Positions 44,065-64,000 of a stretch of DNA of 64,000 nucleotides are shown here, one piece after another. The stretch spans positions 2,108,001 to 2,172,000 of the forward strand of contig NZ_MVDG02000001.1 of the NCBI RefSeq assembly GCF_002008315.2, in the 5' to 3' direction. Under the pieces are notes generated by a model. The model was not told the origin of the DNA. It searched no databases and saw nothing but the letters and a program-made list of their open reading frames with translations. Source of the stretch: Arthrobacter sp. KBS0703. GTDB taxonomy: Bacteria; Actinomycetota; Actinomycetes; Actinomycetales; Micrococcaceae. How positions within the stretch are numbered: the first letter of the stretch is position 1; every line of letters begins with the position of its first letter. A program made the position numbers and the translations under genes.

Positions 44065-45910
44065 GGCCGTCGGAGGAGCGGAGGGCGGGGTGTGCGCGGC
44101 ACCGGCAGTGTGCGCGGCGCGGGCGGTGTGCGCAGCGCGGGCGGTGTGCGCAGCGCGGGTAAATTGCGCGGTTCCGTAGCCGGAGCCGACAAGCTGCCGC
44201 CCGGATGCCGCCGTGATGCCGCCCGGCACCCGGCGCTTCGGCACCTGCGGCTTCTGTGGCTCCGGCGGCACGGCCGGACCCCGCCAGCGGCACCAGTTCG
44301 TCGGCGAGCTCGCGTGTCTGGCGGTCATGGGCCACCAGAATGACCGTGGCCCGGCCGCGCAGGGCCCGGATGGCGTCATGGACCACGTTGGCTGATGCCC
44401 GGTCCAGGTGCGCCGTCGGCTCGTCGAGCAGGAGGACCGTGGCGCCTGCCTCGATGCGGGCCAGGCCTCGGGCAAGGGCAACGCGGCGCAGCTCGCCGGG
44501 GCTGAGTTCGGCCGGGTGCTTGCCGGCCAGGTGCCCGGCGCCGGCGGCCGCAAGACAGCGCAGCACGTCACCGTCCGGTGCCGGGTCCGCGGTCCCCGGG
44601 CCGGTGCCGCCTGGCCCGCGGCTGTCTGGCCGTTAGCCGTGAGATAGAGCAGGATCTCGTCCCGCACCGTCTCCGCCACCATCACGGGGTGCTGAGGCAC
44701 CCAGGCAACGTCCCCGGCCATGTAGCCGCCGACGACGCCGCTCACGTCGGCGCCTCCTCCGGAGCCGATGATGCCGGCGAGGACGCCAAGGACCGTGCTC
44801 TTGCCTGCTCCGCTGGGGCCGTCCAGCGCGGTGACCAGGCCGGCCGGTGCCGAAAAGGTGAGGGGGCCGACGGCGGCGCCCTGCCTCCCCGCGTAGCTGA
44901 CGGTCAGGTCCCTGACGGTCAGGTCAGCCGGAACGGCCAGCCCGGTCTGGCCTGGCGGCACGGGCTCCAGCCGCTGCTGCCCGGCTGCTTCCAGCACCGC
45001 CGTCGTTTCCGTGAGTGCGGCCCTGCCGTCGTCGCTTGCGTGGTGTGCCGTTCCCAACTCCCGAAGGGGCAGGTAGCAGTCCGGCGCCAGAATCAGCGCG
45101 AGCAGGCCGGCTTCGAGGACCATGTCGCCGTGGACCAGCCGGACGCCGATGAAGACGGCCACCACTGCCACCGAGATCGTTGCGATCAGCTCCAGGGCCA
45201 GGGCGGACAGAAATGCGGTCCGGAGGGTCCCCGTGGTGCGCGACCTGTACTCCTCGGAGATTTCCTCCAAGGCTCGGCGCTGGGCTGAAGCGCGGCCCAG
45301 GCCAACCAGCACCGGCAGCCCCTTGGCCAGTTCAAGCATGTGCGCGGACAGCCGGGCCAGCGCCGCCTGCGCTTCCTGGACCCTGTCCTCCGTGTAGCGG
45401 CCGATCAGCACCATAAACACAGGCACGAGCGGAACCGTCAGCACGATCACCACCGCGCTGACCCAATCGGCGAGAAGGATGCGGGCGCCCAGCAGCAACG
45501 GAATGGCGGCGCAGTTCACCAGTGCCGGGAGGTACTGGGTGTAGTAACTGTCCAGGGCATCCAGCCCCCGGGTCGCGAGCACGGCCAGCCCGCCGTCGGC
45601 GGGCCGGCCTCGCGGACACCGTTGCGCAGCGCCGTTTCAAGGAGCCGTGCACGCAGCTCCTCCTTGACGCCAAGGGCGGCCCGGCGCGAGGCGACTCCCT
45701 GCGCCCAGACGGTCAGGGACCGGAGGAGGACGCCTGCCGCCCCCAGCCCAGCTGAGCAGCCCAGGCGGCGTCGTGCGCCATGAGCCCGGCCAACACGGAG
45801 GCCACGGCCTGGGCCATGAGCACCAGGGACAGGGCCTTCAGCGCTGCGAGCAGGCCAAGGCCGTAGAGTGCGCGGCGCGTTGAGGGACCGGCGGGGAACT
45901 GCGATCTCAC
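44065..45910 (-). CDS. cydD: Thiol reductant ABC exporter, CydD half, with apparent frameshifts
   Basis: The CydD permease/ATPase half. It starts at GTG 45910, six bases after cydB, with ALYGLGLLAALKALSLVLMA. The membrane domain continues as YLPALVNCAAIPLLLGARIL, and the ATPase has DGPSGAGKST, LSPGELRRVALARGLA and VLLLDEPTAHLD. Frames change in the C-run 45740-45744, at about 45600, near 44588 (each restored by one base) and near 44279-44282. No in-frame stop precedes cydC, and a linker with a hexapeptide repeat connects them. The preserved motifs argue for sequence errors, not natural decay. The right boundary is arbitrary. Confidence 0.83.
44090..44161. repeat. Four tandem 18-bp repeats in the CydD-CydC linker
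   Basis: Four consecutive units beginning GTGTGCGC start at 44090, 44108, 44126 and 44144. The middle two differ by a single base. On the minus strand they encode an Ala-Ala-His-Thr-Ala-Arg-like hexapeptide repeat in the linker frame. Confidence 0.85.
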
Positions 45911-45916
45911 GGCCGG

Positions 45917-46985
45917 TTAGTCATTCCTGGTGAAGGCCTTGGCGGCAACCGCCGGCAGGAAGCTGTGCGCCTCCGGGATGTGCGAGGCGCTGACCCGGCG
46001 GCGGAACACCCAGTAGGTCCAGGCCTGATAGGCGATCACCAGCGGCAGGCCGACGCATGCCACGATGCTCATGAGGCCCAGCGTGTAGTCGGACGATGAC
46101 GCGTTGGAGATGGTCAGGCTGAACGCGGGGTCGATGGTGGACGGAAGGACCACCGGGAACACGGCTCCGAAGATGGAGGCCGAACCGCACAGCAGGAACA
46201 CGCCGACTGCAAGGAAAGCCCGGCCTTCGTTGCCCCTCCGGGCCTGGAGCCAGGCGGCAGCCGCCGCGACCACCGCAACGGCGAGCACGGCCACCGTCCA
46301 GGCCTCGCCGCTGAGCAGCTGCACGCTGACGGCCCAGCCGGCCAGCGGAAGCAGCAGGACCGGCAGCAGCCGCACAAACCAGCGCCGGGCCCGGTGCCGC
46401 ACATCGCCGTCGGTCTTCAACGCCAGGAAGGCCAGGGCGTGCAGCAGGGCGAACCCCGCCACCGCGAACCCGCCAAGCAGCGCGTATCCGTTGAACCAGG
46501 AGAACGGGCCGCCGTCGCGGTCTCCGTTGGCGTCCAGGGGCAGGCCCGTTGTGGTCAGCGCCAGAGCGGCGCCCACCCCGAAGGCGGCAAGGAAGGATGT
46601 CTCTTATACACATCTAGATGTGTATAAGAGACAGGTCCCAGGTGTTGCGCCACCGGTCGGTGTCCACCTTGCCGCGGTACTCAAATGCAACCGCCCGGAA
46701 GATCAGGGCGACCAGAACCAGGAGCAGCGGCAGGTACAGGGCCGAGAAAAGGGACGCGTACCAGAACGGGAACGCCGCAAAGGTGGCACCGCCCGCCGTC
46801 AGGAGCCATACCTCGTTGCCGTCCCAGACGGGACCGATCGTGTTGAGCAGCACGCGGCGTTCAGTGTTGTTGCGGGCAAAGATCTTCATCAGCATTCCCA
46901 CCCCCAGGTCGAAACCCTCGAGGAAGAGGTATCCGGTCCACAGGACGGCGATGGCGATGAACCAGATGGTCGGCAGCAGTTCCAT
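45917..46985 (-). CDS. cydB: Cytochrome bd oxidase subunit II, interrupted by an adapter
   Basis: CydB, the second membrane subunit of the quinol oxidase. The N-terminal part (46985-46635) reads MELLPTIWFIAIAVLWTGYL, FLEGFDLGVGML and IGPVWDGNEVWLLTAGGATF, all classic CydB. The C-terminal part (46596-45917) resumes at SFLAAFGVGAALALTTTGLP and runs through several membrane helices to LVIAYQAWTYWVFRRR. The 37-bp adapter between them replaces roughly ten residues, and the frame changes across it. Restored length is about 350 residues, normal for the family. The ATG lies 18 bp after the cydA stop. CydD follows after six bases. Confidence 0.92.
46598..46634. other. Nextera mate-pair junction adapter (artefact) inside cydB
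   Basis: TGTCTCTTATACACATCT (first base of the mosaic end lost or changed to A at 46597) is joined directly to AGATGTGTATAAGAGACAG. The frame breaks here within an otherwise continuous CydB. Confidence 0.95.
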
Positions 46986-47003
46986 GCTCAGTATCCTCAG
47001 CTC

Positions 47004-48605
47004 TTAGTAGGCGAATGCCAGGACGTCGTCGGCTGTTCCGGACTTCCCCGGCCCGCCCGGGCCCGGAATGTTGTCCTCGTTCTCGTCAACCGGTGCGTGG
47101 ACCAGTTCCGGCATGGCCGAAACGACGCCGCCGCGGACGTACTTGACGAGGAGTTTCACCTCCACCACGAGCAGCACCGCATAGATGGTGGTGAGCACGA
47201 TCAGTGACGTGAGGATCTCACCGGCTGAGACTCCGGGCGAAACGGCCGCCGCGGTGAACATGAAGACCTGGTCGATGCCGTTGAGGTCGGGGTTGGGCGC
47301 CACGACGAACGGCTGGCGGCCCATCTCCGTGAAGATCCAGCCGGCGGCGTTCGCACCAAACGGAGCCAGGATGCCGAACACGGCGAGCCTCATGAGCCAG
47401 CGGGACTCCGGCACGGTGCCGCGCCGGGTGACCCACAGGGCCAGGAGTGCGGCCAGCGCCGCGACGCCCCCGAAGCCGATCATCATGCGGAACCCCCAGT
47501 AGGTGACCTCCATGACGGGCACGTACTGGACCTCTTGGCCGGCCCGGTCGCCGTAGATCGGGTCATTCGGCACGTGCGTGCCGTAATCGGCCTTGTACTG
47601 GTCCAGGAGGCTGTTGACGCCCTTGACCTCGGTGGTGAAGTCACCCTTGGCGAGGTAGGAGAGGATGCCCGGGACCTCGATCAGCGCCACGATGTCGTCG
47701 CAGTTCCGGGAACCGAGGTTGCCGACGCTGAGGACCGAGAAGCCCGTCCCGTCGTGGCAGGCGGCCTCGGCGGCGGCCATTTTCATGGGCTGCTGTTCGA
47801 ACATCAACTTTCCCTGCAGGTCTCCGGTCAGCGCGGTGCCTGCGAAGGAGATCATGGCGACGACGGCGCCGATCCGCAGCGAGCGGATCCAGACGGTGTG
47901 GTCGGTAAGGTCGCGTCCCGGAATGTCGGCAGCGCCCGGGATGACCTTGCCGTCGGCCCCGACGGTGTCGATGCCGTCCCTGCGCCGCCGCCAGAGGTGG
48001 TACCAGGCGATGCCGAGCAGGAAACCGCCGGCCACCGCGAGTGCGCCGAAGAGGGTGTGCGGCACGGCCACGAGTGCGGTGTTGTTGGTAAAGACCGCCC
48101 ACGCGTCGGTCATGACCGGCCGGCCGTCGATCATCTTGACGCCCACCGGGTGCTGCATCCAGCTGTTGGCCACAATGATGAAGTACGCGGAAAAGAAGGA
48201 TCCGATCACGGCGATCCAGAGGCAGGCCAGGTGGACGCCTTGCTTGAGCTGCTTCCAGCCGAAGATCCAGAGGCCCAGGAAGGTCGATTCAACGAAGAAC
48301 GCCAGCAGCGCTTCCAATGCCAGCGGAGCGCCGAAGACGTCGCCCACGAACCGGCTGTATTCGCTCCACGCCATGCCGAACTGGAATTCCTGCACGATTC
48401 CGGTGGCCACGCCCATGATGAAGTTGATCAGGAAGAGCTTGCCCCAGAATTTCGTCATCCGCAGGTAGGCCGGGTTGCCCGTCCGGTGCCAGATGGTCTG
48501 GATGACTGCCACGACGAGGCCCAGGCCAATTGTCAGCGGCACCATCATGAAGTGGTAGACGGTGGTGATCCCGAATTGCCAGCGTGCGATTTCCAAGGCT
48601 TCCAA
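47004..48605 (-). CDS. cydA: Cytochrome bd ubiquinol/menaquinol oxidase subunit I
   Basis: A 533-residue heme-bearing subunit of the high-affinity terminal oxidase. ARWQFGITTVYHFMMVPLTI carries an N-terminal heme-ligand histidine, FQFGMAWSEYSRFVGDVFGA and LEALLAFFVESTFLGLWIFG bear the proton-channel glutamates, and NSWMQHPVGVKM holds a second His. About nine membrane spans are predicted, with a short Q-loop as in Gram-positive enzymes. First gene of cydABDC. Its upstream region holds three BlaI-type palindromes, so it is probably repressed by the divergent regulator. Confidence 0.97.
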   Translation of the reverse strand: MEALEIARWQFGITTVYHFMMVPLTIGLGLVVAVIQTIWHRTGNPAYLRMTKFWGKLFLINFIMGVATGIVQEFQFGMAWSEYSRFVGDVFGAPLALEALLAFFVESTFLGLWIFGWKQLKQGVHLACLWIAVIGSFFSAYFIIVANSWMQHPVGVKMIDGRPVMTDAWAVFTNNTALVAVPHTLFGALAVAGGFLLGIAWYHLWRRRRDGIDTVGADGKVIPGAADIPGRDLTDHTVWIRSLRIGAVVAMISFAGTALTGDLQGKLMFEQQPMKMAAAEAACHDGTGFSVLSVGNLGSRNCDDIVALIEVPGILSYLAKGDFTTEVKGVNSLLDQYKADYGTHVPNDPIYGDRAGQEVQYVPVMEVTYWGFRMMIGFGGVAALAALLALWVTRRGTVPESRWLMRLAVFGILAPFGANAAGWIFTEMGRQPFVVAPNPDLNGIDQVFMFTAAAVSPGVSAGEILTSLIVLTTIYAVLLVVEVKLLVKYVRGGVVSAMPELVHAPVDENEDNIPGPGGPGKSGTADDVLAFAY

Positions 48606-48650
48606 GGCGGTCCCTACTTTTGGCTAGGTCTCAAGCTCTCATGCGCTGTT

Positions 48651-48667
48651 TTCTACGTTACGTAGAA
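48651..48667. promoter_or_regulatory. BlaI-type operator 1 (TTCTAC-N5-GTAGAA)
   Basis: TTCTACGTTACGTAGAA is a perfect palindrome of 6-bp arms around GTTAC, 46 bp upstream of cydA. Operator 2 starts 24 bp away. Confidence 0.75.
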
Positions 48668-48674
48668 CATCAAC

Positions 48675-48691
48675 TTCTACAGAGTGTAGAA
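48675..48691. promoter_or_regulatory. BlaI-type operator 2 (TTCTAC-N5-GTAGAA)
   Basis: TTCTACAGAGTGTAGAA has the same perfect arms with spacer AGAGT. With operator 1 it forms a closely spaced pair on the cydA side of the divergent promoter. Confidence 0.75.
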
Positions 48692-48706
48692 CACGGCATC
48701 CGACGC

Positions 48707-48722
48707 TGTAAACATCGTTACA
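48707..48722. promoter_or_regulatory. Second palindrome class in the cydA-blaI region
   Basis: TGTAA and TTACA flank ACATCG. It differs from the three BlaI-type sites and may bind another regulator of cyd expression; unidentified. Confidence 0.4.
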
Positions 48723-48763
48723 CCGCCCGCGCCGGGCTGCAATGAGACGCGGCGCGCCACGCC

Positions 48764-48780
48764 TTCTACTTCATGTAGAA
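48764..48780. promoter_or_regulatory. BlaI-type operator 3 (TTCTAC-N5-GTAGAA)
   Basis: TTCTACTTCATGTAGAA repeats the perfect arms with spacer TTCAT. It lies about 100 bp before the blaI start, consistent with autoregulation. Confidence 0.75.
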
Positions 48781-48878
48781 AGAACGGCACAAACACGCTA
48801 GATTTGAACTTGAAGAATTGGAATCACAGCACGGGGCCAGCCGGCCCTAAGGCAGTGCGTTGTCAAAAGGATGTACAC

Positions 48879-49265
48879 ATGGCAAGTCTTGGGGAACTGG
48901 AACGGGCGGTCATGGACCTGCTCTGGGCGGGCCACGAAGCAGCCACCGCCAACACGCTGCGGGATATGCTCGCGCAGAGCACGGTTGCCCATGGCGGCGC
49001 AGCGGGGCACGAGGGCAAGGACCTGGCAGTCACCACGGTCCTGACCGTCCTGTCGCGCCTTGAAAAGAAGGGCCTGGTGGAACGGGAACGCGGCATGCGG
49101 CCCCACCGCTACCAGGCGGTATCCAGCCGCGAGGACCACACCGCCGAACTCATGCACGAGGTGCTGGGATCCGCCCCGGACCGCGAGGCCGTTCTCGCCC
49201 GGTTCATCGGATCCGTCACCGAAAGTGAAGCCGAGACGCTGCGCAAACTGCTTGGCCACAGCTAG
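48879..49265 (+). CDS. blaI: BlaI/MecI/CopY-family transcriptional repressor
   Basis: A 128-residue winged-helix repressor. LGELERAVMDLLWAGHEAAT and the recognition region TTVLTVLSRLEKKGLVERER are the family hallmark, and a C-terminal dimerisation helix bundle follows. ATG 48879 has AAAAGGA upstream; the longer opening at 48804 lacks a site. It pairs with the M56 peptidase gene seven bases downstream, the BlaI-BlaR1 arrangement, and is divergent from cydA with three matching palindromes between. It most likely controls cydABDC and itself. Confidence 0.92.
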   Translation: MASLGELERAVMDLLWAGHEAATANTLRDMLAQSTVAHGGAAGHEGKDLAVTTVLTVLSRLEKKGLVERERGMRPHRYQAVSSREDHTAELMHEVLGSAPDREAVLARFIGSVTESEAETLRKLLGHS

Positions 49266-49271
49266 CGGCAG

Positions 49272-50258
49272 ATGTTCTGGACCTCATACTTCCTGGCGGT
49301 CCTGGCGATAGTACTGGCCTGGCCGGTGCCTATCCTCCTTTCCCGCGCCCACTGGCCGGCCCGGGATCCGTTCACGGCCATGCTGCTCTGGCAGGCCATC
49401 GGCCTCGCCGGCGGCCTGTCGATGATCGGCGCCATGCTGGTCTACGGCCTCGAACCGGTCGGGGACAACCTAATCGCCGGGCTGCAGGCCCTGGCCGGAA
49501 TGGTGCTCCACAACGCACCCACCACGGCGCTGGGCTTCTGGCACCTGTTTGCGCTCTCCGCGGCCGCCCTGCTGACGGCGCACCTCGTCTTCACGCTGCT
49601 GCTGACCTATTACAAGATCGAGCGGCAGCGCCGGCGCCACCGTGAACTGCTGGCGCTGCTGGCCTCGCCTTCGGCCGACGGCACGGGCACCGTGGTGATC
49701 AACCATGACTCGCCGGTGGCGTACTGCCTGCCCGGCGGGGCCCGGTCCGTCACCGTGCTCTCCGACGGACTGATGGCAGCACTGGAACCCGCGGAGCTCC
49801 GCGCTGTCCTCATTCACGAGAACGCCCACCTGAACCAGCGCCACCATCTACTGCTGTGGGCCTTCGCGGCCTGGCGTCAGGCCCTGCCCTGGCTGCCCAC
49901 CACCCGCCTCGCCCAGGAAGCCGTGAACTCCCTGATCGAGATGCTCGCCGACGACGTCGCCCTCAGGACCGAAAGTAAGGTGACGCTGATTAAGGCCATT
50001 GCGATCGTGGCCAGCGGCTCCGCCGTTCCGCAGGCGGCACCGGCCATGGGCCCGGGCGTACTTCCCGGCGCTGGCCTGCAGCTGCCGGACGGCTCCGCCG
50101 GTTCCGGCTCGGCAAGCACGACGGCGTCACGCGTCAGCCGTCTTCTCTCGCCCCGGCCACCACTTCCCGCCGCCCTCCGCGCCGCAGTGGTGGCGGTCTG
50201 CGTCCTGCTGCTGGCCATCCCCACCGCACTGCTGATTGTGCCCGGCCTGCTCGGCTGA
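49272..50258 (+). CDS. M56-family (BlaR1-type) membrane metallopeptidase
   Basis: A 328-residue membrane zinc peptidase. Three N-terminal membrane helices and one at the C-terminus surround a cytosolic gluzincin domain with VLIHENAHLNQRHHLLL (HExxH). A downstream glutamate lies in EMLADDVALR. Unlike BlaR1 of staphylococci, it has no extracellular penicillin-binding sensor domain, so another signal, such as redox or membrane state, must activate it. It presumably cleaves or inactivates the BlaI repressor encoded upstream. The 3' side of this gene adjoins an adapter junction, so its true downstream neighbour is not certain. Confidence 0.9.
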   Translation: MFWTSYFLAVLAIVLAWPVPILLSRAHWPARDPFTAMLLWQAIGLAGGLSMIGAMLVYGLEPVGDNLIAGLQALAGMVLHNAPTTALGFWHLFALSAAALLTAHLVFTLLLTYYKIERQRRRHRELLALLASPSADGTGTVVINHDSPVAYCLPGGARSVTVLSDGLMAALEPAELRAVLIHENAHLNQRHHLLLWAFAAWRQALPWLPTTRLAQEAVNSLIEMLADDVALRTESKVTLIKAIAIVASGSAVPQAAPAMGPGVLPGAGLQLPDGSAGSGSASTTASRVSRLLSPRPPLPAALRAAVVAVCVLLLAIPTALLIVPGLLG

Positions 50259-50321
50259 TTGCTCGCGGCTGGCGGCTTCCCGCTGACAGCGCCGCACTGA
50301 GTCCGGCCGGGGTCGCCGCGC

Positions 50322-50359
50322 CTGTCTCTTATACACATCTAGATGTGTATAAGAGACAG
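50322..50359. other. Nextera mate-pair junction adapter (artefact) between the M56 gene and parE
   Basis: CTGTCTCTTATACACATCT is joined to its reverse complement. It lies 64 bp after the M56 stop and two bases before the parE stop codon. Sequence may be missing here, so adjacency of the two sides is only inferred. Confidence 0.95.
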
Positions 50360-50361
50360 CC

Positions 50362-52470
50362 TCAGGCGTCGATGCGGTCCCGGTCCAGGCTCGCGGCACC
50401 GGCGATGATGAAGTCCTTCCGCGGTGCAACGTCCGATCCCATCAGCAGGTCGAACGTGGCTTCGGCATGCTGGGCGTTTTCGATGTTGACCTTGCGGAGC
50501 ATGCGGTGCCGCGGATCCATGGTGGTTTCGGCCAGCTGCTCGGCGTCCATCTCCCCCAGGCCCTTGTAGCGCTGGATGGGTTCCTTGTACTTCTTGCCGT
50601 CCTTGGCCAGCCTGGCCAGCAGCGCATGGAGCTCAGCTTCGGAGTAGGTGTAGATCATTTCGTTGGCCTTCTGGCCCGGGTTGATGACCTCCACCCGGTG
50701 CAGCGGCGGCACTGCAGCGAACACCCTGCCCTGTTCAACCATGGGGCGCATGTAGCGGAAGAAGAGGGTGAGCAGCAGCGTGCGGATGTGGGCCCCGTCC
50801 ACGTCGGCGTCGGTCATGAGGATGACCTTGCCGTAGCGGGCGGCCTCGATCGCGAAGCTGCGCCCCGAACCCGCTCCGACCACCTGGATCAGGGCGGCGC
50901 ATTCCGCGTTGGAGAGCATGTCCCCCACCGATGCCTTCTGGACGTTCAGGATCTTGCCGCGGATGGGCAGCAGGGCCTGGAAGTCGGAGGACCGGGCCAG
51001 CTTCGCGGTGCCGAGGGCCGAATCACCTTCAACGATGAACAGTTCCGAGCGGGCGACGTCGTCGGTGCGGCAGTCCGCCAGCTTCGTGGGCATCGATGAC
51101 GTCTCGAGGGCGGTCTTCCGGCGCTGCGTCTCCTTGTGGACGCGGGCGGAGATGCGCGACTTCATCTCGCTGACGATCTTCTCCAGCAGCAGCGCCGACT
51201 GTGCCTTGTCGTTGCGGTTCGCCGAGTTGAGCTTGGCCGCAATCTCCTTTTCCACCACCCTGGCCACAATCGCCTTGACCGCGGAGGTGCCCAGGATCTC
51301 TTTGGTCTGGCCCTCGAACTGCGGCTCAGCGAGCCTGACGGTCAGGACGGCGGTCAGGCCGGCAAAAATGTCGTCCTTCTCGATTTTGTCGTTGCCGGCC
51401 TTCAGCTTCCTGGCGTTGGTCTCGACGGCCTTGCGGAACGTCTTGACCAGGGCCTGCTCGAAGCCTGCCTGGTGTGTGCCGCCCTTGGGGGTGGAGATGA
51501 TGTTGACGAAGCTGCGGACCGCGGTGTCGTAGCCGATCCCCCAGCGCAGTGCGACGTCCACTTCGCAGTCCCGTTCGACCTCCGCCAGCTTGCTGTGGCC
51601 TTTGTCGTCCAGCACGGGGACGGTTTCCTTGAACTTCCCGGCGCCGTGCAGGCGCCAGACGTCCGTCACGCCGGAGTCGATCGCGAGGAATTCCACGAAC
51701 TCCGAGAGGCCGCCGTCATGGTGGAACACTTCCTCGTGCGGGCCCAGCTCCCCCGGCGTGCCTGCGAGCTTGCGTTCGTCCCGCACCGTGAGCTTCAGGC
51801 CCGGCACCAGGAAGGAGGTCTGGCGTGCGCGGGCGGCCAGTTCGTCATACGAGAACTTGGCGTCCGGCGTAAAGATTTGCCGGTCCGCCCAGTAGCGGAT
51901 GCGCGTTCCGGTCACGCCCCGTTTGGCCTTGCCCACGACGTCGAGCACGGAATCGTCCACGAACGCGGTGAAGCTGGCGGCCGGATCGGGCCGCGGGCCG
52001 CTGTCCTTGAAGCGGCCGGGCTCGCCACGGCGGAAGGACATCTTGTAGGTTTTGCCCCCACGGTCCACTTCCACGTCGAGCCGTGCGGACAGCGCGTTGA
52101 CCACCGACGCGCCCACGCCGTGCAGGCCGCCCGATGCGGTGTAGGAGCCGCCGCCGAACTTGCCGCCGGCGTGGAGCTTGGTGAAGACGACCTCGACGCC
52201 GGTGAGGCCGGTCTTGGGTTCCATGTCGACGGGGATGCCGCGGCCGTCGTCGTGGATTTCGACGGAATTGTCCGCGTGCAGGATGATCTTGATGTCGTGG
52301 CCGAAGCCCGCCAGGGCCTCATCGACGGAGTTGTCGATGATTTCCCACAGGCAGTGCATGAGTCCCCTGGAGTCCGTGGAACCGATGTACATGCCCGGAC
52401 GCTTGCGGACAGCCTCCAGGCCCTCCAGCACCGAAAGGTGGCGGGCGGTGTAATCAGAACTCGGTGTCAC
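50362..52470 (-). CDS. parE: DNA topoisomerase IV / gyrase subunit B
   Basis: A 702-residue GHKL-ATPase type IIA topoisomerase subunit: EIIDNSVDEALAGFG, the ATP motifs IHDDGRGIPVD and GGLHGVGASVVNALS, then TOPRIM FIVEGDSALGTAKLARS and MTDADVDGAHIRTLLLT. Length and the absence of a large insert favour ParE over GyrB. Start is GTG 52470 behind AAGGAG. The stop lies two bases from the adapter; the C-terminus itself (ASLDRDRIDA) looks complete. It partners the A subunit at 38114. Confidence 0.94.
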   Translation of the reverse strand: MTPSSDYTARHLSVLEGLEAVRKRPGMYIGSTDSRGLMHCLWEIIDNSVDEALAGFGHDIKIILHADNSVEIHDDGRGIPVDMEPKTGLTGVEVVFTKLHAGGKFGGGSYTASGGLHGVGASVVNALSARLDVEVDRGGKTYKMSFRRGEPGRFKDSGPRPDPAASFTAFVDDSVLDVVGKAKRGVTGTRIRYWADRQIFTPDAKFSYDELAARARQTSFLVPGLKLTVRDERKLAGTPGELGPHEEVFHHDGGLSEFVEFLAIDSGVTDVWRLHGAGKFKETVPVLDDKGHSKLAEVERDCEVDVALRWGIGYDTAVRSFVNIISTPKGGTHQAGFEQALVKTFRKAVETNARKLKAGNDKIEKDDIFAGLTAVLTVRLAEPQFEGQTKEILGTSAVKAIVARVVEKEIAAKLNSANRNDKAQSALLLEKIVSEMKSRISARVHKETQRRKTALETSSMPTKLADCRTDDVARSELFIVEGDSALGTAKLARSSDFQALLPIRGKILNVQKASVGDMLSNAECAALIQVVGAGSGRSFAIEAARYGKVILMTDADVDGAHIRTLLLTLFFRYMRPMVEQGRVFAAVPPLHRVEVINPGQKANEMIYTYSEAELHALLARLAKDGKKYKEPIQRYKGLGEMDAEQLAETTMDPRHRMLRKVNIENAQHAEATFDLLMGSDVAPRKDFIIAGAASLDRDRIDA

Positions 52471-62016: not shown

Positions 62017-63771
62017 ATGTCTGAATCCGTTAACTTGCCCGCCCTCGGTGAGAGCGTCACCGAAGGAACCGTCACCCGCTGGCTCAAGCAGGTAGGTGAC
62101 CGGGTAGAGGTGGACGAGCCGTTGCTCGAAGTCTCCACCGACAAAGTAGACACTGAAATCCCCTCTCCGATCGCCGGCGTCATCGAGGAAATCCTCGTTG
62201 CCGAAGACGAAACCGCAGAAGTTGGTGCTCCGCTGGTCCGCATCGGTGACGGTTCAGGCGGCGGGTCCGCCCCCGCCGAAGCCGCTCCGGCCGAGGAAGC
62301 ACCGGCCGCCGAAGAGGCGCCTGCCGAGGAAGCACCCGCCGCCGAGGCACCCGCCGAGCAGGCTCCCGCCGCCGAAGAGGCTCCCGCCGCGTCCGGCGAA
62401 GGCCACGAAGTGACCCTCCCCGCACTGGGCGAGAGCGTCACGGAGGGCACTGTGACCCGCTGGCTCCTGTCTCTTATACACATCTAGATGTGTATAAGAG
62501 ACAGCTCCTCGAGGTCTCCACGGACAAGGTGGACACCGAGATCCCGTCGCCTGTTGCCGGCACGCTCCAGGAAATCCGCGTCAACGAAGACGAAACGGCC
62601 GAGGTCGGCTCCGTCCTCGCGGTCATCGGCTCCGGCGCTGCTGCCCCGGCCGCCGCACCCGCACCCGCCGCTGCTCCCGAGAAGGCGGCCGAAGCGCCGG
62701 CTGCTGCACCGAGAAGCCGGCCGAGGCACCTGCCCCGGCTCCGGCCAAGGAAGAAGCTCCGGCACCTGCCGCCCAGGCACCTGCTGCTCCGGCTGCCGCT
62801 CCTGCTGCTGCCCCGGCCGAGGCACCTGCGGCCGGCGCCGAGTCCGGCTACGTCACTCCGCTGGTGCGCAAGCTTGCCAACCAGCAGGGCGTAAACATCT
62901 CCTCCCTCACCGGCACCGGGTGGGCGGGCGCATCCGCAAGCAGGACGTGCTCGCTGCCGCCGAGGCCAAGGCAGCGCCGGCTGCAGCGCCCGGCGGCCCC
63001 GCCGCTTCCGCCGCTCCGTCCGCTGTCTCTTATACACATCTAGATGTGTATAAGAGACAGACGCAGAAGGCCCCGCGCATCCGCCAGGTCATTGCCCGCC
63101 GCATGCGCGAGTCCCTCGAGATCTCCACCCAGCTCACGCAGGTGCACGAAGTGGACATGACCAAGATCGCCAAGCTGCGCCTCAAGGCCAAGAACTCGTT
63201 CCAGGCCCAGAACGGCGTCAAGCTCACCTTCCTGCCGTTCATTGCCAAGGCAGTGGCCGAGGCCCTCAAGCAGCACCCGAAGCTCAACGCTGCGTACGAC
63301 GAGGACAAGCAGGAAATCACCTACCACAACGCCGAGCACCTGGCGATCGCGGTGGACACCGACAAGGGCCTGCTGGTCCCGGTCATCTCCGATGCCGGCA
63401 ACCTTAACCTGGCCGGCCTGGCGGGCAAGATCGCAGATGTGGCCGGCCGCACCCGCGACGGCAAGATCGGCCCGGACGAGCTGTCCGGCGGCACGTTCAG
63501 CATCACCAACATCGGATCCGTCGGCGCCCTGTTCGACACCCCGATCATCAACCAGCCGCAGGTGGGCATCCTTGGCACCGGTGCGATCGTCAAGCGCCCC
63601 GTGGTGGTGGCCGATGAGAACGGCGACGACTCGATCGCCATCCGTTCCATGATGTACCTGTCCCTGACGTACGACCACCGCCTGGTGGACGGCGCCGATG
63701 CAGGCCGCTTCCTGCAGTCCCTCAAGGCCCGCCTTGAAGAGGGCGCGTTCGAAGCGGATCTGGGACTCTAA
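62017..63771 (+). CDS. sucB: Dihydrolipoamide acyltransferase E2 (SucB-type), broken by two adapters and two frameshifts
   Basis: The E2 core of a 2-oxo acid dehydrogenase complex. It begins at ATG 62017 behind AAGGAG. Lipoyl domain 1 carries Lys43 in [14 protein letters not shown]. An Ala/Pro/Glu linker leads to a near-identical lipoyl domain 2. A subunit-binding domain ([30 protein letters not shown]) follows. The catalytic domain ends with the active His in [16 protein letters not shown]. Adapters at 62467 and 63023 replace about 12 residues of lipoyl domain 2 and a linker piece. One base is missing near 62710 and one near 62919. Restored, it is a normal two-lipoyl actinobacterial E2 and pairs with lpdA. 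Confidence 0.92.
62467..62504. other. Nextera mate-pair junction adapter (artefact) in sucB lipoyl domain 2
   Basis: CTGTCTCTTATACACATCT is joined to AGATGTGTATAAGAGACAG. Upstream reads VTRWL and downstream LLEVSTDK; by comparison with lipoyl domain 1, twelve residues (36 bases) are replaced by these 38 bases. Confidence 0.96.
63023..63060. other. Nextera mate-pair junction adapter (artefact) in the sucB linker
   Basis: The same perfect head-to-head mosaic-end pair, between the linker ending SAAPSA and the catalytic-domain start [15 protein letters not shown]. The frame changes across it. Confidence 0.96.
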
Positions 63772-63887: not shown

Positions 63888-63904
63888 TACTACGAAGCGT
63901 AGAA
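63888..63904. promoter_or_regulatory. BlaI-type operator 4 (near-match) at the promoter of the last gene
   Basis: TACTACGAAGCGTAGAA matches the TTCTAC-N5-GTAGAA sites near cydA at 11 of 12 arm positions. It lies just upstream of a possible -10 element TAGACT (63914-63919), where a bound repressor would block the following gene. Confidence 0.6.
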
Positions 63905-63925: not shown

Positions 63926-64000
63926 ATGATAATCGTCTATAACATCATGGTCTTCCTGCACATCGTCGGCGCCGCGATGATCGTCGGCATCTGGATCGGC
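63926..64000 (+). CDS. Membrane protein, N-terminal fragment
   Basis: Twenty-five residues are visible before the window ends (MIIVYNIMVFLHIVGAAMIV and five more). They are almost wholly hydrophobic, forming one membrane helix with a histidine, like CopD-type or other small integral proteins. The ATG lies about where transcription would start from TAGACT, so the message may be leaderless. The upstream BlaI-type palindrome suggests shared control with cydA. Family not recognised from this fragment. Confidence 0.7.
   Translation, partial: MIIVYNIMVFLHIVGAAMIVGIWIG

Follow-up and report, generated by a model that had tools for sequence, protein, structure and literature searches.

Predicted BlaI operators at cytochrome bd, haem and respiration genes of Arthrobacter sp. 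KBS0703 and other Micrococcaceae

In the 64,000 nucleotides of Arthrobacter sp. KBS0703 DNA analysed here (hereafter the window), the gene for subunit I of cytochrome bd, cydA (47004..48605, minus strand, TTG start; open reading frame matching PF01654 at 500 bits), is divergent from blaI (48879..49265, plus strand), which encodes a 128-residue BlaI/MecI/CopY-type repressor, and the 273 base pair (bp) gap between them holds three perfect TTCTAC-N5-GTAGAA palindromes. What do palindromes of this kind do between an oxidase gene and a regulator from a family named for antibiotic resistance, and which protein reads them? Judging from sequence, the palindromes are very probably binding sites of the adjacent BlaI, and we hold with good confidence that the evidence as a whole is best explained by BlaI operators that govern cydA, blaI and a regulon of haem and respiration genes, with the neighbouring peptidase as the likely inactivator. 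Control of cydA by BlaI through these palindromes had been proposed in a first-pass annotation and is supported by the conservation of the sites, by the way motif and blaI occur together whether or not cydA is present, by covariation with the BlaI helix and by promoter overlap.

Three palindromes in the cydA–blaI gap

Operators A (TTCTAC-GTTAC-GTAGAA, 48651..48667), B (spacer AGAGT, 48675..48691) and C (spacer TTCAT, 48764..48780), none of which is assigned a strand, have perfect, identical arms and differing spacers, and the starts of A and B lie 24 bp apart, so that the sequence bears out the earlier description of the sites. A promoter scan predicted one cydA promoter, TTTACA-18-TACACT (48683..48712, minus strand; 1 found, 0.1 expected in shuffles), whose -10 element (TACACT) sits inside operator B; operator A lies downstream of this -10 and operator C upstream of blaI. 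The spacer bases ACT of operator B, read in the cydA direction, are kept in nearly every aligned locus (A in 74/74, C in 73/74 and T in 74/74), the alignment of the gap comprising 74 of the 80 named loci described below (L118, L120, L121, L122, L147 and L156 were left out). On the other side, a possible blaI -10 element, TAGATT (48799..48804, plus strand), was noted by eye 18 bp past operator C; its TA.ATT is conserved in the alignment of relatives, and it was not recovered by the scan that found the cydA promoter. The geometry of the sites at the two predicted promoters fits repression of cydA together with autoregulation of blaI.

A chance origin of the perfect sites was considered and is ruled out by window shuffles and reversed-control genome counts. 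At up to two mismatches the window contains four matches against 0.30 expected, a number reached in none of 100 shuffles, and the fourth match (63888-63904) is itself a member of the same regulon. Genome-wide, the perfect motif occurs at nine places compared with two for the reversed control pattern; one of the nine (C12:1052) is a duplicate of the hemQ site on a redundant 3.4 kilobase (kb) contig, leaving eight.

Conservation of the motif and its association with blaI

All 13 genomes of the genus carry between six and nine perfect sites as against zero to two for the reversed pattern, and the perfect motif was found in none of six genomes from other families. We retrieved every perfect site from nine of the 12 genus relatives, amounting to 50 loci, and all 50 lie at genes that also have sites in KBS0703: nine each at cydA/blaI, hemQ, the cytochrome c maturation (ccs) operon and a gene for a 123-residue membrane protein, seven at hmp, six at a pyridoxamine-oxidase-like (PPOX) gene and one at a gene for a 116-residue membrane protein. 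A broader set of 80 named loci, drawn from Arthrobacter, Pseudarthrobacter, Paenarthrobacter and one unplaced member of the Micrococcaceae, has the blaI–peptidase pair adjacent in every case and a divergent cydA within the retrieved sequence in 78. Three sites are kept in 77 of these loci and two in one, so that the palindrome, whose conservation upstream of cydA the first-pass annotation had put forward as a check, is present as at least one gap site in 78/78 named loci with cydA. The remaining two (L121 and L122), in which cydA is missing from the retrieved sequence, have a single site, operator C, before blaI. The start of cydA lies at most 432 bp from blaI in 76 of the 78 loci and 3.5-3.8 kb away in L118 and L120; in these two the control region is split by some 3.3 kb of additional DNA, with A and B beside cydA and C beside blaI.

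Across 197 genomes of the family, with BlaI called at E values up to 0.001 and CydA at E values up to 1e-50, the perfect motif is present in 171, BlaI in 169 and CydA in 174; negative status was deduced from absence in the positive tables in eight genomes for BlaI and three for CydA. The motif occurs in 168 of the 169 genomes with BlaI and is absent from 25 of the 28 without it, giving four discordant genomes. It follows blaI and not cydA: genomes with cydA and no blaI lack it in 13 of 15 cases, and those with blaI and no cydA have it in 10/10. In genus g12 the motif occurs once in each of the four genomes with blaI and nowhere in the remaining eight. An association of the motif with cydA rather than blaI, or with another regulator, was rejected on this cross-tabulation of motif, blaI and cydA (2x2x2).

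The arms of the operator also change with the protein. Among 40 blaI loci retrieved at class level from other families, a CTAC-N5-GTAG site was found within 200 bp upstream in 22, of which 13 have a BlaI recognition helix of the T(V/I/L)LTVL type and nine a helix of the TVMTV type. Half-arms of the former (Leu-type) group read TTC in 38/44 and TAC in none, and those of the latter (Met-type) TAC in 25/32 and TTC in none. Outer arm bases that vary along with the recognition helix implicate BlaI as the protein that binds. In 22 of the 40 loci blaI faces a divergent CydA-like gene, identity being only 27-28 percent in family f27. Sites in trans were also seen: in L300 a TACTAC site stands 76 bp in front of a cydA whose contig is not that of blaI, and in L313, from another family, such a site separates the phosphatase gene of a ccs operon from the gene that follows it (TlpA-like by eye). 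When the degenerate TWCTAC-N5-GTAGWA was sought in six class-level genomes, a few clear targets emerged (cydA, ccs, copC, hemE) along with several unclear ones, and the control was the commoner pattern in one of the six (2 vs 1).

The predicted regulon

The eight perfect sites of KBS0703 fall in six regions, with the cydA/blaI region accounting for three. The others stand upstream of a histidine-phosphatase gene (PF00300) that opens the TlpA-CcdA-ResB ccs operon (AhpC-TSA PF00578 and CcdA PF02683 by profile, ResB by eye); at hemQ-hemH-hemC (HemQ NF042928, 331.7 bits against a cut-off of 235; HemH PF00762; HemC by eye); at the PPOX gene (PF12900); at the flavohaemoglobin gene hmp (Globin PF00042); and at the gene for the 123-residue membrane protein (L009:3097-3465), which has no Pfam or NCBIfam match. 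This last gene is a constant member of the regulon, found in 9/9 relatives examined.

All eight places with one mismatch were inspected, and four are upstream of genes with a candidate target role. One precedes an atpI-like gene and then atpB (PF00119), after a wecA-like gene (PF00953); others precede an ATP-binding cassette (ABC) ATPase gene and, at a distance of about 200 bp, sucC (PF08442). The fourth, TACTACGAAGCGTAGAA (63888..63904, no strand assigned), lies 21 bp before the gene for the 116-residue membrane protein, which starts at 63926 and leaves the window (L018:1527-1874) and whose product matches no Pfam family; homologues of this gene elsewhere (L043, L213 and L240) carry perfect sites. 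Two of the rest (L014 and L016) are within genes and were taken as chance, and for two (L015 and L017), both between genes, inspection showed no clear target. By eye, no beta-lactamase gene stands at any of the eight perfect or eight one-mismatch sites. Palindromic operators lie upstream of blaI itself and of its putative targets, which, to judge from the sites at cydA and, with one mismatch, at atpI-like/atpB, include cytochrome bd and ATP synthase. The first-pass annotation is supported in naming cydA as a target and underestimated the scope, cydA being one of about ten.

The ATP synthase site recurs in the family. An atpI-like gene was matched in 30 of 31 family genomes, some matches being weak, and 18 of these 30 loci have a site with at most one mismatch 71-147 bp before the match (most commonly TTCTATCTCGTGTAGAA, in 9/18), with none in the other 12; the control pattern was never nearer than three mismatches. 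We also examined 72 site loci (L179-L250) from 20 genomes of distant genera of the family, most cydA/blaI sites having been left out. Three come from genomes without blaI; of the other 69, which were classified by scanning one representative per new target group and assigning the remaining members by similarity, 31 are at the same targets (hemQ 10, hmp 6, PPOX 4, the 123-residue gene 4, ccs TlpA 4, blaI 2, cydA/blaI 1) and seven at one-mismatch targets (ABC 4, 116-residue gene 2, sucC 1). A further 13 are at new respiratory or copper genes, encoding UbiA-family proteins (CtaB by eye; 2), CtaC (2), SdhC (2), SURF1 (2), a QcrC-like cytochrome c (1), CopC (3) and CopD (1), while 11 are at recurrent uncharacterised genes and seven have no assignment. 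The sdhC gap is divergent, with the site 39-66 bp from a mannose-1-phosphate guanylyltransferase-like gene (by eye) versus 216-242 bp from sdhC, and a glyoxalase-like gene is on the other side of the SURF1 gap. Genus g18 (G029, G182 and others; L179-L205), which has no close cydA, mostly carries 9-15 perfect sites per genome (three in one genome and six in another); in two g18 genomes examined these sites are at ctaB-like, ctaC, SURF1, sdhC, hemQ and other genes, and in this genus the main aerobic chain seems to have come under the regulon. A family of membrane proteins of about 200 residues recurs behind sites in several genera (L192, L204, L215, L217, L226 and L233), the one member scanned (from L217) having no Pfam match.

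The window contains adapter-like dimers at approximately 46597-46634, 50322-50359, 62467-62504 and 63023-63060, and also at 1114; they consist of transposon mosaic ends joined back to back, of the kind present in Nextera adapters. The first of these interrupts cydB (45917..46985, minus strand; open reading frames, gene name by eye) in the assembly. Since the region 45500-51500 aligns over its full length with four relatives, as a single piece in each case, across the dimers at about 46597 and 50322, these dimers look like assembly scars rather than biology, and the unbroken alignment rules out an assembly artefact around the cydA–blaI site. Contig C12 (L010) duplicates the hemQ and hemC regions of C1 and has an adapter scar, indicative of a redundant or rearranged piece.

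The peptidase partner, mechanism and rival readings

BlaI passes the Penicillinase_R winged-helix model PF03965 with 72.8 bits against a curated cut-off of 22.6, and its closest solved relative is 2g9w, which we take to be M. tuberculosis Rv1846c. The gene that follows it (49272..50258, plus strand) encodes a 328-residue M56/M48-type membrane zinc peptidase, identified by profile matches, conserved residues and fold, in which H182-E183-x-x-H186 and E223-x-x-A-D are invariant across 35 homologues and the structure model has long helices at 2-16, 33-60, 89-130 and 300-327. A BlaR1-like membrane and protease fold is present, BlaR1 being the top match and closest solved fold; the list of fold matches was not used to exclude other folds. 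No penicillin-binding (beta-lactam sensor) domain appears among its Pfam matches or in the model, and a peptidase lacking this C-terminal extracellular domain is not classed as a beta-lactam receptor. The pair resembles staphylococcal BlaR1-BlaI and MecR1-MecI, which also combine a repressor with a membrane zinc peptidase; unlike those systems, the peptidase here is without the penicillin-binding domain and the predicted targets are respiratory instead of beta-lactamase or PBP2a.

A nearer parallel exists in mycobacteria. Passages in PMC5473688 (citing Sala 2009) describe binding of M. tuberculosis BlaI to the cytochrome bd and ATP synthase promoters and a mycobacterial BlaR without a sensor domain, so that BlaI-BlaR (Rv1846c-Rv1845c) as described there shares with our system a BlaI, a sensorless BlaR-type partner and, as predicted targets here, those two promoters. 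According to a passage in PMC12565901, BlaI lowers transcription of the Rv1303 homologue, the gene ahead of the atp operon, and binds its promoter; atp genes are given as BlaI targets in passages of PMC5874750 and PMC9480834 and atpH and sigC in one of PMC8265638, and a passage in PMC7924339 includes two atp genes among the predicted targets of BlaI and puts cydB under SenX3/RegX3 instead. The respiratory link is therefore already known in one genus. Our locus differs in that cydA adjoins blaI, in the operator TTCTAC-N5-GTAGAA, and in perfect sites that reach hemQ-hemH-hemC, the cytochrome c maturation operon and hmp. Among the matches listed in an open-access literature search, no paper dealt with BlaI and haem or cytochrome c genes in Micrococcaceae. 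Part of the principle is known already; this analysis contributes the operator sequence, the predicted targets in haem synthesis and cytochrome c maturation, the tie between motif and blaI throughout the family, and the helix covariation.

The BlaI–operator link and the regulon are supported by these comparisons; repression, cleavage of BlaI by the peptidase and a respiratory or membrane signal are what we infer beyond them. BlaI bound to operator B, over the cydA -10, and to operator A just downstream would shut off cydA, and on operator C at its own promoter it would regulate itself; the same repressor would hold genes for cytochrome c maturation, the final reactions of haem synthesis, flavohaemoglobin and ATP synthase, together with sucC and others. 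Failure of the haem-dependent respiratory chain, through low oxygen, nitric oxide, or shortage of haem or copper, would then cause the peptidase to cleave BlaI and release the regulon. That the two genes are paired in all 80 named loci and that the active site is intact suggests cleavage; the respiratory nature of the signal is a guess from the content of the targets.

Several observations weigh against this interpretation. The association of motif and blaI (Fisher's p = 3e-27) and the covariation counts come from related genomes and are not independent events, and three blaI-less genomes hold one perfect site each (L245-L247), at no known regulon gene in the retrieved stretch. In the KBS0703 genome the motif at up to two mismatches is rarer than its reversed control (88 vs 188), so only perfect and one-mismatch sites were used, and several sites sit in divergent gaps where they could serve either gene. 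No CTAC-N5-GTAG was found within 200 bp upstream of 18 of the 40 class-level blaI genes, eight of these belonging to family f13 (8/9 f13 loci), whose helix resembles that of 2g9w. Finally, the peptidase scores 22.8 bits on Pfam M56, under the cut-off of 31, and 39.7 on M48, over the cut-off of 20.3, which corrects the M56 assignment of the first-pass annotation; its description of the neighbours of the palindromes as cydA, a BlaI-type repressor and a BlaR1-like peptidase without a sensor otherwise stands.

The rival that survives best, unlikely in our estimation and still to be taken seriously, keeps BlaI in charge of the regulon and holds that the peptidase does not cleave it on a respiratory cue, BlaI itself sensing a ligand or metal or the peptidase answering a cell-wall signal like classical BlaR1. 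The copper-responsive repressor CopY belongs to the same superfamily, its model TIGR02698 matching BlaI weakly (25.6 bits, far under its cut-off of 122), and copC and copD carry sites in some genera. The adjacency of blaI and peptidase in 80/80 loci, the invariant catalytic residues, the missing beta-lactam domain and the lack (by eye) of a beta-lactamase gene at any of the eight perfect sites argue against this rival. That BlaI activates some targets or mainly tunes basal expression is improbable: site positions differ between targets and operator C flanks the possible blaI promoter on its -35 side, but operator B covers the predicted cydA -10 and, according to the passage on mycobacteria, the gene ahead of the atp operon is transcribed less when BlaI is overexpressed (PMC12565901). 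Least probable of all is that the sites belong to another respiration or nitric oxide regulator (e.g. of Rrf2/NsrR type) with blaI nearby by coincidence, since, despite respiratory targets and an Rrf2-type gene upstream of hmp, the sites disappear with blaI and not with cydA, persist before blaI even where no cydA is near (L121, L122, L182 and L223) and shift their arm bases with the BlaI helix.

Beyond BlaI control of the regulon, we suggest tentatively, and at less than even confidence, that governing haem-dependent respiration is the old task of BlaI and its sensorless peptidase in the Actinomycetes and that control of beta-lactamase branched off later. On this view the peptidase senses failure of the haem-copper chain in the membrane (perhaps via an invariant Cys152, haem or quinone) and releases a single regulon that covers oxidase, haem supply, the assembly of cytochromes and ATP synthase. 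Because BlaI-type sites mark haem, cytochrome and ATP synthase genes, respiration in soil actinobacteria appears to be run by a protein family that takes its name from antibiotic resistance. A pair annotated as penicillinase regulators would thus be recast as a switch for respiration and haem in a large family of soil bacteria, and probably in the class as a whole, with an exact operator, about ten candidate targets and a code between helix residues and operator bases, which sharpens the question of what signal a BlaR1-type peptidase detects when it has no receptor domain.
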